Origin: Acidobacteriota bacterium
GTDB taxonomy: Bacteria; Acidobacteriota; Terriglobia; Terriglobales; Acidobacteriaceae
Assembly: GCA_003225555.1 (NCBI GenBank)
Contig: QIAM01000046.1
Span: 1-64,000 of the forward strand
Direction: 5' to 3'
DNA: 64,000 bases
Shown here in pieces: positions 6,040-8,940 of this stretch; position 1 is the stretch's first letter; each line of letters opens with the position of its first letter. A model generated the notes under the pieces. It did not search any database, was not told the origin of the DNA, and worked only from the letters and a program-made list of their open reading frames with translations. Position numbers and translations under genes: made by a program.

Positions 6040-8940
6040 ATGCTGACCGGTTCTGAAATTCGGCGCAAATTTTTGGACTTCTTTGTGCAAGAAGGACACA
6101 GGGAAGTGCATTCGTCGTCGCTCGTTCCGCAGAACGATCCTACGCTGCTGTTCACCAACGCGGGGATGAACCAGTTCAAAGACGTCTTCCTTGGCCTGGA
6201 AAAGCGCGACTATACGCGCGCCACCACCTCGCAGAAGTGCGTGCGGGCCGGTGGCAAGCACAACGATCTGGAGAACGTCGGCTTCACCAACCGGCATCAC
6301 ACGTTCTTTGAGATGCTGGGGAATTTTTCTTTTGGTGATTACTTCAAGAAGGATGCGATTGCGTACGCGTGGGAATTGATTACGTCGCCGCAGTGGTTCG
6401 GGATTTCGAAGGACAAGCTCTACGTGACGATTTTCAAAGGAGAAGCCGGCATCGAGCGGGATGCCGAGGCGTATGAGTTGTGGCTGGGACAAGGTGTGCC
6501 GAAGGATCGCATCTACGAGATGGGATTGAAAGACAACTTCTGGCAGATGGGCGATACCGGCCCTTGCGGGCCGTGCAGCGAGATTCATTACGACATGGGT
6601 CCGGCGGCTTCCGATCAGGGATACACGGATTGCGAGTTTGGATGTGACTGCGGACGGTATGTCGAGATCTGGAATCTGGTGTTCATGCAGTTTGACCGCG
6701 ATGCCAGCGGGAAGTTGAATCCGCTGCCCAAACCCTCGATTGATACTGGGATGGGGCTGGAGCGGGTGACTTCTGTCTTACAGCGCGTAATTTCGAATTA
6801 CGAAACAGATCTGTTCACACCGCTGATCAAGCGCGCCGCTGAATTGACTTTGGGTACGGGGACCAGAACTGCCGAGCTTGGCTCCGCCGGACAGCCGAGG
6901 GCGGCTCTCCCCACCCGAGCAGAAACTGTGGCGGCTTCTGGGCCGGGCCCAGGTCATGTGGCGACAGCCGCCTCGGCTGTCGGTGCGGAGCGAAGCTCCG
7001 CTGGACTTTCCAGCCACAAGTCCGCAGCTTCCCTGCGGGTCATCGCCGACCACTCGCGAGCAGCAACGTTCCTGATCTCCGACGGAGTTCTGCCCTCGAA
7101 CGAAGGCCGCGGCTATGTGCTGCGCAAGATCATCCGCAGGGCCATTACACATGGACGGTTGCTCGGACAGACAGAGCCGTTCCTGCACGACATGGTCTTC
7201 GCAGTCCGTGACCTGATGCAGGATGCGTACCCGGAGCTCAATGAAACCGCAGACCGCGTGTCGAAGACCGTGCTGATCGAGGAAACGCGCTTCGCACACA
7301 CGCTGGACATTGGACTCGAAAAGCTTGAGGAGTTGCTCCAACGATCATCCGGGATGCTGCCGGGCGAAGCAGCCTTCAAACTCTACGACACATTCGGGAT
7401 GCCGCTGGATTTCATGCAGGATGCGGCGCGTGATCAGGGTATTGCGTTCGACCAGGCTGGGTTTGACCGGTCGATGCAGGAGCAGAAGTCACGCGCTCGT
7501 GCTTCATGGAAGGGTGCGGCGCAGCAGACTGCCAATCCCGCTTATCAGCAGCTTCCGAAATCCGCCTTCGAAGGTTACCGCCAGACTCGCTCGGAACACT
7601 GCGAAGTGCTTGCGATCATCCGCAACGGCCAGGGAACCGAGGAGCTTAAGCCCGGCGAAGAGGGCGAGGTCATTCTCGACCACACCCCTTTCTATGCTGA
7701 ATCCGGCGGGCAAGTCGGTGACCGCGGATGGCTCTACTCCGACGATCACAACACGATCGTTGCCGAAGTTAAGGGATGCTACTACCCGATTCAAGGTGTG
7801 CGCGCGCATCAGGTTTTAGCAAAATCCCCACCCTACGAAAACCGCGTAGGGTGGGGTACCCTCAAGGTCGGGGACAAGGTTGATGCGGTGGTCGACACCG
7901 ACATTCGTCAGTCCACCATGCGCAATCATACGGCGACGCATTTGCTTCACGCCGGACTGCGCGAGGTGCTGGGTAAGCATGTGAAGCAGGCGGGGTCGCT
8001 GGTGGCGCCGAATCATCTGCGCTTTGACTTTTCGCATTTCACTGCGGTCGAAGATGAAGAGTTGCAGGACATCGAGGACATCATCAATAAGGAAGTGCTG
8101 CGCAATCAGAAGGTCGAGACTATTGCGGACGTGCCGATCGACGTGGCGATCAACGAGTATCACGCCATGGCGCTGTTTGGCGAAAAGTATGGCGACAAGG
8201 TTCGGGTGATCAAGATCGGCGACTTCTCCACTGAACTCTGCGGGGGCACGCACACCGGGGCGACCGGGGAGATTGGGCTGATCAAGATTCTGAAGGAAGG
8301 CAGCGTGGCTTCGGGTGTGCGGCGCGTGGAGGCGGTTACGGGGGAAGGATCGCTCGCGCACTTCCGGAAGGATCATGAGTTGGAAGGAGTGGTGTTGAGC
8401 TTCGTTTCACCCACCTTTGCGCAAAAAACGCGCAAGGATGGGGCACCCTCTTCCGAGGAGGGTTCGGCATCTCTAGCTGAGGCTTTGAGGATCGAACTCG
8501 ATAAGAAAGATGCGGAGATCAAGCGGCTGGCGCGCGAACTCGATCAGGCGCGGATGAAGTCGGCATCGGCGTCCATCGGCACGGCGAACATCGGCGACAA
8601 GATCAAAGATGTGCGCGGCGTGAAAGTGCTGGCGCATCGGGTAGACAATCTGGAGCGTCCGCAGATGCGCACGCTGGTCGATCAGCTTCGCGACAAGCTG
8701 GGCTCGGGTGTCGTCGTGCTGGGTTCGGCTTCGAATGGCAACGTTTCGCTCATCGTGGGCGTCACCAAGGATCTGACTTCGCGGGTGCAGGCCGGGAAGG
8801 TGATTGGTCCGGTTGCACAAAAGGTCGGCGGCAAGGGAGGCGGGCGTCCGGACCTGGCGGAAGCCGGAGGGAAAGATGCGGCGGCTCTGGACTCCGCGCT
8901 GGCTGAGGCTTACGGGGTGGTGGAAGCGCTGCTCGGATAG
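6040..8940 (+). CDS. alaS: Alanyl-tRNA synthetase with three in-frame repeat-derived insertions
   Basis: Charges tRNA-Ala in the cytoplasm. Family landmarks: [15 protein letters not shown] start (TTG at 6007 is possible but less typical), [10 protein letters not shown], the editing-site [10 protein letters not shown] (HxxxH), [13 protein letters not shown], and the C-terminal [12 protein letters not shown]. At 966 aa it is about 90 residues longer than usual. The excess maps to three segments: residues 272-330 (6853-7029), where [11 protein letters not shown] resumes; about 596-606 (7826-7856, a perfect 12-bp hairpin); and about 790-811 (8409-8470). All three are palindromic repeat DNA. The flanking catalytic and editing motifs look intact, so the enzyme is probably functional. 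Confidence 0.95.
6853..7029 (+). repeat. In-frame repeat insertion 1 in alaS
   Basis: 177 bases replacing a short family loop before [11 protein letters not shown]. It holds CGAGCTTGGCTC + GGACAGCCGAGGGCGGCT and, facing it, CGACAGCCGCCTCGGCTGTC + GGAGCGAAGCTCC. The first part matches the intergenic copy at 23229-23272 nearly base for base; the second, inverted, matches 29150-29175. Confidence 0.8.
7826..7856 (+). repeat. In-frame repeat insertion 2 in alaS (perfect hairpin)
   Basis: CCCCACCCTACG and its exact reverse complement CGTAGGGTGGGG flank a 7-base loop. The encoded [11 protein letters not shown] interrupts the usual [12 protein letters not shown] segment. Confidence 0.8.
8409..8448 (+). 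repeat. In-frame repeat insertion 3 in alaS
   Basis: TTTGCGC-A6C-GCGCAAG stem with extended imperfect pairing (CCACC ... GGATGGGG), encoding [13 protein letters not shown] in the C-terminal region before the coiled segment. Confidence 0.65.

Follow-up and report, generated by a model that had tools for sequence, protein, structure and literature searches.

The window, by which we mean the whole 64,000-nucleotide stretch of DNA analyzed here, comes from a metagenome-assembled genome (4.42 Mb in 114 contigs, 86% complete) of a Candidatus Sulfotelmatobacter-like bacterium, in agreement with an earlier note on this DNA, which had taken the host for an acidobacterium. A single open frame on the forward strand, 6007..8940, is alaS, and it specifies 977 aa when read from the TTG at 6007; the ATG at 6040, which gives a protein of 966 aa, is the probable start, the TTG being less favored. 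The frame holds the only AlaRS match in the genome, and the idea of a spare second alaS was rejected on that ground. H630, H634, C734 and H738 (966-aa numbering), which we take to be the editing-site residues of AlaRS, are invariant across 36 aligned AlaRS sequences. Directly upstream of alaS, at 5924-6000, lies a long, nearly perfect inverted repeat with arms AACCACAGAGGGCACCGCGAGCACGGAG / CTCCGTGCTCGCGGTGTCCACTGTGGTT, which stops about 40 nt before the ATG at 6040 and may represent either a terminator or yet another repeat family, the third. An Rfam search gave one weak match, upstream of alaS only, and the idea that the inserts described below are a known RNA family was rejected, since Rfam had no match in them.

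To place the extra residues of this AlaRS, the window protein was aligned with those of 34 loci from the genus (several partial) and 21 outgroup loci. Compared with the outgroups, the window protein has its extra residues around aa 283-335, 609-618 and 802-821, where the earlier note had put them, and over aa 276-345 it has 70 residues where the outgroups have 22-28. No outgroup has a filled site (0/21 at sites 1 and 2, 0/20 at site 3), and we therefore rejected the inserts as ancestral AlaRS domains. The earlier note had named, as evidence against its reading, the same segments in distant AlaRS proteins without nucleotide relatives elsewhere; we found the segments missing from the outgroups and related repeats dispersed through the genome. 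It had also described the reading frame as kept through the inserts and the editing motif as intact, and the single open frame and the invariant residues given above bear out both statements.

Insert 1 lies between the aminoacylation and tRNA-recognition regions (Table 1). In an alignment to chain 3hxu_A, which we take to be E. coli AlaRS, it falls between residues 273 and 276, and this is better evidence for its placement than the AF2 model. In that model, residues 274-324 of insert 1 are coil with pLDDT <50, insert 2 (about 598-607) sits in a loop between strands with block means of 80 and 70, and insert 3 (795-811) is coil between helices with block means of 55 and 50; low confidence at the inserts proves little, however, because the model is weak (pTM 0.48) and pLDDT is also <50 in core residues 25-75.

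Table 1. Repeat features in and around alaS, in window coordinates
Feature	Position	Strand	Remarks
Insert 1	6853..7029	+	Family B double unit, BIME-like, head to head
Family B REP-like unit in insert 1	6881..6915	-	E 5.3e-8
Family B REP-like unit in insert 1	6957..6991	+	E 7.8e-11; stem CGACAGCCG/CGGCTGTCG
Small perfect hairpin, GCGGAGC-GAA-GCTCCGC, joined to family B unit	6985..7001	+	Fold of 6984-7003
Insert 2, family A hairpin	7825..7861	+	Perfect 12-bp stem; loop of editing region
Insert 3, family A hairpin	8408..8448	+	Linker before C-terminal region
Family B copy, intergenic	23238..23272	-	R3 match
Family B copy, intergenic, 10 bp from called gene 26897-27646	26853..26886	-	R3 match
Family B copy, 2-bp overlap with end of called gene 29172-30218	29140..29173	-	R3 match

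The arms of insert 2 (7826-7837/7845-7856) pair perfectly, and those of insert 3 (8410-8422/8430-8442) form an imperfect hairpin. When predicted RNA folds were compared with those of shuffled sequences, z was -5.3 for insert 2, -3.8 for insert 3 and -4.3 for the whole of insert 1. Within insert 1, the unit at 6957-6991 (z = -2.9) and the small hairpin at 6984-7003 (z = -4.5) fold better than shuffles, the unit at 6881-6915 folds no better (z = 0.07), and a further small hairpin, 6869-6887, is little better at most (z = -0.9).

Inserts 2 and 3 belong to one repeat family and insert 1 to another, in keeping with the earlier suggestion of more than one. A covariance model, R1, was built from inserts 2 and 3 (family A, consensus CCCCA-stem-TGGGGCACCC), and its top match was insert 3, itself among the training sequences. 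In the source genome, at least 56 R1 matches were found at E<=1 among the 150 candidates scored out of 2,680 from a first look, which amount to at least about 55 dispersed copies when each place is counted once. At E<=1e-5 family A was present in 36 of 37 genomes of the genus (the source genome included) and in one of 24 others. A second covariance model, R3, was made from the insert 1 unit (family B); in the source genome the 150 candidates scored, out of 5,216, all matched, giving at least 150 matches, and at E<=1e-5 family B was found in 37/37 genomes of the genus and 0/24 others. Both halves of insert 1 match R3, in opposite orientations, and so do the two repeats outside alaS with which insert 1 had been said to share its sequence, together with a third (Table 1). 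The tetranucleotide GTAG is absent 5' of the family A hairpin, whose end reads GGGTGCCCC, and we therefore rejected family A as a GTAG-tagged REP. At the corresponding position of family B the sequence is mostly TGTGGGG, with CGTAGGG once among the 30 best copies, so that a GTAG tag in this family is degenerate at best.

Family A is tied by position to a transposase. Y1 transposases (PF01797) are encoded by 39 of 41 genomes of the genus, and family A stood on both sides of the gene in four of the five Y1 loci that prompted a wider scan (L294, L320, L322 and L323, not L321). For that scan, 20 Y1 loci were picked beforehand for having a score and profile range like those of the bracketed cases, and in 19 of them family A brackets the Y1 gene as a -/+ pair within 600 bp (the pairs of L394, L398 and L399 include matches below 20 bits); the span of the bracket is 685-711 bp in 13 of the 19. 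Among the higher-scoring Y1 loci (L295-L319) only L300 is bracketed, one of 25, or one of 19 when at least 600 bp is available on both sides. Four of five proteins of the bracketed type score above the cut-off of NCBIfam NF047646 (REP_Tyr_transpos). The source genome has four Y1 matches, of which only L294 is bracketed (G000:C44:73011-73271); it is a truncated REP-associated tyrosine transposase (RAYT) whose 3' end runs into a family A copy, and, as the fifth of the proteins just mentioned, it scores 53.7 against the NF047646 cut-off of 80. By position, then, family A forms the hairpin ends of a RAYT (HUH/Y1) unit about 690 bp long, and its mobilization by a RAYT would be the best explanation on the established model of such systems. 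Family B gave four matches in 33 Y1 loci and no bracket, one match being strong (56.5 bits, in L292, where a Y1 fragment lies about 290 bp away).

A genome-wide search for the inserts with a count of genic and intergenic copies, as the earlier note had proposed, was carried out with genes called from codon usage, the caller having been trained on the window, and hosts identified by Pfam/NCBIfam. The 55 listed family A copies divided into 15 genic, 2 at a gene edge and 38 intergenic, and the 30 best family B copies into 10, 1 and 19, respectively. The coding fraction of the window is 0.79, and the much lower genic share of family A is as expected if most insertions into genes are purged. Genes hosting family A were alaS (two copies), murC, smc (running off the end of the stretch), dnaG, mutL, and genes for an OppF-like ATPase, a glycosyltransferase, a LolC/E-like permease, an ABC-F protein, a pyridine nucleotide-disulphide oxidoreductase, an S9 peptidase, a TPR-CHAT protein, a Tes-like radical SAM protein and a 158-aa frame without a Pfam match. 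Family B hosts were mutS, uvrC, tgt, lpxB, and genes for a UvrD-type helicase, an ABC ATPase, a molybdopterin oxidoreductase, a DsbH-like thioredoxin protein, a DCC1-like protein and a TPR protein; in lpxB and in the TPR protein the copy lies within about 20 residues of an end. Besides alaS, about two dozen genes thus hold repeats in frame and, to judge from their open frames, presumably translate them, and the reading frame of the family A hairpin varies from gene to gene. At one locus (L210:1501-1540) the called ATG of a trpB-like gene is provided by a family A copy lying across the start of that gene.

This one genome carries in-frame hairpins in smc, mutS, uvrC, the UvrD-type helicase gene, dnaG and mutL (L203, L221, L228, L249, L284 and L287). 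Repair and replication genes make up 6 of the 23 hosts other than alaS, with a binomial probability of 2e-4 or 8e-3 for an assumed background fraction of 4% or 8%, gene length being ignored. Family A also appears easy to read through: 46 of the 55 listed copies have no stop in any of the six frames, compared with 16% of letter shuffles, and the length is divisible by three in 41 of the 55 and in 52 of 81 copies in genome G029, although kinship among the copies, and their grouping into length subfamilies, make these counts non-independent and confound the multiple-of-three length. A broader proposal, that family A is a frame-neutral RAYT-linked hairpin for which genes, including those of replication, repair and translation, are a regular habitat and whose stem is kept over species, is offered tentatively, and we consider it doubtful.

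The same alaS sites were compared across the genus. At site 1, palindromic inserts are present in 9 of 30 covering loci (short in L062), and a tenth insert, in L078, is unrelated. Site 2 is filled in 7 of 29, with stems that vary in sequence and length among species, and in L080 the insert has ceased to be a clear hairpin. At site 3, 21 of 26 covering loci have an insert, and the hairpin of this site is also found in three genomes with a broken alaS (G028, G034 and G010). On a tree of the alaS protein, insert 1 requires at least 8 changes, insert 2 at least 6 and insert 3 at least 5; resolution of this tree within the genus is poor, its bootstrap had not settled, and 11 of the 34 inner branches in the tree as a whole are starred, L080, L085 and L088 were left out of it for coverage, and L081, L086, L087 and L089 were omitted from the scoring of inserts 2 and 3, as was L058 from that of insert 3. 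The alaS inserts are therefore patchy across the genus, with the minimum changes pooling gain, loss and recombination alike.

Inserted sequences of other kinds were also seen in alaS. The palindrome at site 1 of L057 recurs within two mismatches at eight places in G001, two of them in alaS, and represents a small family at most. A fourth AlaRS site, unrelated to the other three, lies near aa 447 of the window protein; there, 17-103 aa are inserted in L068, L072, L079, L081 and others and 75 aa in the outgroup L095, and nothing in the window. In addition, a short sequence of the type CTTCGACAAGCTCAGGGCAGGC stands in frame inside family A hairpins as a repeat within a repeat, in alaS of L063, L066, L074 and L079, murC of L328 and L339, and mutL of L358 and L370.

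Two further host genes were followed through the genus. An R1 match lies in the same linker of murC in 9 of 30 loci, and three further loci (L328, L331 and L339) have remnants or nested forms by eye. The right end of the murC insert reads mostly ...GHP, and ...GAP in L330, which indicates that the reading frame is not fixed. The mutL site of the source species gave an R1 match in 2 of 30 loci (L354 and L368), with two more by eye (L358 and L370), and a second mutL site near aa 115-130 gave one in 3 of 30 (L364, L372 and L379), where the copies are in frame and add residues ahead of GT(V/I)IEINGG.

Pairing of the stems was then evaluated. At site 3, 16 sequences were aligned, omitting L063, L066, L074, L079, L071 and L075 (nested insert or rearrangement) and L084, and the 13-pair stem was 91.3% paired, with one pair unpaired in 14 of the 16. 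Eight pairs had changed on both sides, compared with a shuffle mean of 1.6 (0/500 as high) and 0-2 for slid stems; in 15 rows, all 9 two-sided changes kept the pair, against a random mean of 0.65 (0/5,000 as high). For the second hairpin of site 1, in eight of the nine species (L071 omitted), 97.1% of 70 cells were paired, and four pairs had a two-sided change where shuffles gave 1.3 (1/500); its outer pair is A-T, G-C or C-G and is paired in 8/8 species, whereas the number of pair types at this site is unexceptional (44/500 shuffles as high). Not every copy is maintained: L060 has three one-sided stem changes, and L071 is rearranged.

Codons in and around insert 3 were compared in 19 sequences, in four of which the first codons include a nested insert. 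Where the amino acid was the same, the codons were identical in 1383 of 1639 comparisons (0.84) in the insert 3 core, compared with 0.38-0.58 in five flanking blocks, and third codon positions were 0.80 alike, compared with 0.38-0.58 in the flanks. Codon positions 1 and 2 were alike at 0.85 and 0.88 in the core and at 0.88-0.91 and 0.92-0.96 in four flanking blocks; in the fifth block, aa 400-440, the values were 0.71 and 0.78. Taken together, these comparisons of aligned sequences indicate that the alaS hairpins undergo upkeep at the nucleotide level. The alaS stem of G029 differs by at least nine edits from the other 22 copies that could be read out of the 30 best of 81, so that it either changed in place or came from a source outside the sampled copies. 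The two common alaS stem types are also found between genes in relatives, which counts against in-place change elsewhere.

RAYT-linked, presumably mobile hairpins lying in frame in essential genes are a real and general feature of this genus. The explanation that we consider very probable is that dispersed hairpins, RAYT-linked in family A and REP-like in family B, have landed in genes, where they are translated, tolerated and persist. Copies of these two short families would land in coding DNA of the genus and be read through with it; a RAYT would cut and join single-stranded family A hairpins as in other REP systems, and family B is a REP-like unit that is here arranged head to head in a BIME-like form. 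Genic copies would survive only where the frame is kept, in tolerant loops and linkers, a survival that may be made easier by most family A copies being stop-free in every frame. Stems would stay paired across species because template switching, copying from other elements, or both repair the palindrome, which appears the simplest account, and no benefit to AlaRS need be assumed. Template switching has been reported both to create and to maintain hairpins (PMC8794818) and to alter coding DNA in yeast (PMC8604942).

The paired changes could also reflect selection, if the folded mRNA or DNA were functional (in tuning translation, mRNA stability or gyrase binding) and compensatory changes were favored for that reason. 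The two-sided, pair-keeping changes at site 3, the outer pair of site 1 that varies while remaining paired, and the high codon identity of the insert 3 core are what such selection would produce, but 5 of 26 loci at site 3 and 22 of 29 at site 2 lack the insert, which is therefore dispensable, some copies erode, and the pair-type count at site 1 is unexceptional. Moreover, the occurrence of the same stem types between genes in relatives means that replacement or copying can mimic covariation, and template switching is reported to yield compensatory changes without selection (PMC8794818). We regard selection on structure as improbable. Selection on the peptides, which would make the inserts useful new loops of AlaRS, draws on their having lasted in an essential gene across many species, but is harder still to reconcile with one hairpin family being read in differing frames across genes, and with an insert 3 core in which third positions are conserved above the flanks and positions 1 and 2 below four of five flanking blocks, a pattern that points to conservation at the nucleotide rather than the protein level; we think it very unlikely.

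Least credible of all, and to our minds barely worth entertaining, is that replication template switching created the hairpins where they now stand, without any mobile element. That process makes perfect hairpins and alters coding DNA (PMC8794818, PMC8604942), but the family A unit and its ends, TGGGGCACCC, recur throughout this genome, at no fewer than about 55 places, and are present in 36/37 genomes of the genus, and family A units mark transposase genes. In-place template switching is thus contradicted as the origin of the hairpins, and possible as a means of stem upkeep. The landing of dispersed hairpins in genes brings in-gene transposase-linked palindromes into a soil lineage rich in species, whose dozens of sister species act as natural replicates that would allow insertions to be dated, tolerant protein sites to be mapped, and mutation bias to be separated from selection in the pairing of coding hairpins.

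Related systems have been described in other bacteria. GTAG/CGTC-tagged REPs are short dispersed hairpins, occurring singly or as dimers in opposite orientation and partly within genes, and the GTAG REPs are associated with tyrosine transposases (PMC3733652). Family A resembles them as a short, dispersed and partly genic hairpin but lacks GTAG. Intragenic REPs hit tRNA synthetases and many replication and repair genes (Di Nocera et al., 2013, PMC3733652), a pattern from other phyla that is echoed here by hosts among mismatch and excision repair, primase and SMC genes. The species listed there with intragenic REPs include no acidobacterium (section 15), REPs at the same site are described only for recB of two Xanthomonas species, and the word 'compensatory' is absent from its text. 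Its account of TIRYTs in Acidobacteria (K. versatilis, A. capsulatum, T. saanensis and G. mallensis), in which inverted repeats flank a tyrosine transposase without GTAG, includes one K. versatilis TIR that forms a repeat family, and in-gene copies of TIRs are absent from these descriptions (PMC3733652). As far as such descriptions go, family A is nearer to the acidobacterial TIRYT units than to GTAG REPs in having no tag.

The earlier note had likened the inserts to Rickettsia palindromic elements (RPEs), which comprise several palindrome families that lie within genes and are translated in frame with them (Ogata et al., 2000, via PMC10969869). The likeness stands as an analogy, in that families A and B, as described, also place a palindrome in frame in genes, where it is presumably translated, but REP/TIR elements are closer, family A being tied to RAYT transposases. 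RPEs are about 150 bp long, compared with mostly 37-49 nt for family A units, and their hosts, as far as described, are intracellular alphaproteobacteria. We know of no RAYT link for RPEs. In the literature searched, which lay mostly outside subscription journals and included the accessible part of PMC6006769, we found no report of in-frame palindromes in this acidobacterial genus. Palindromes inside genes are themselves already known, from the intragenic REPs (2013, PMC3733652) and the RPEs (2000); judged against what is accessible of these accounts, the alaS hairpins differ in that they persist, and stay paired, across many related species.
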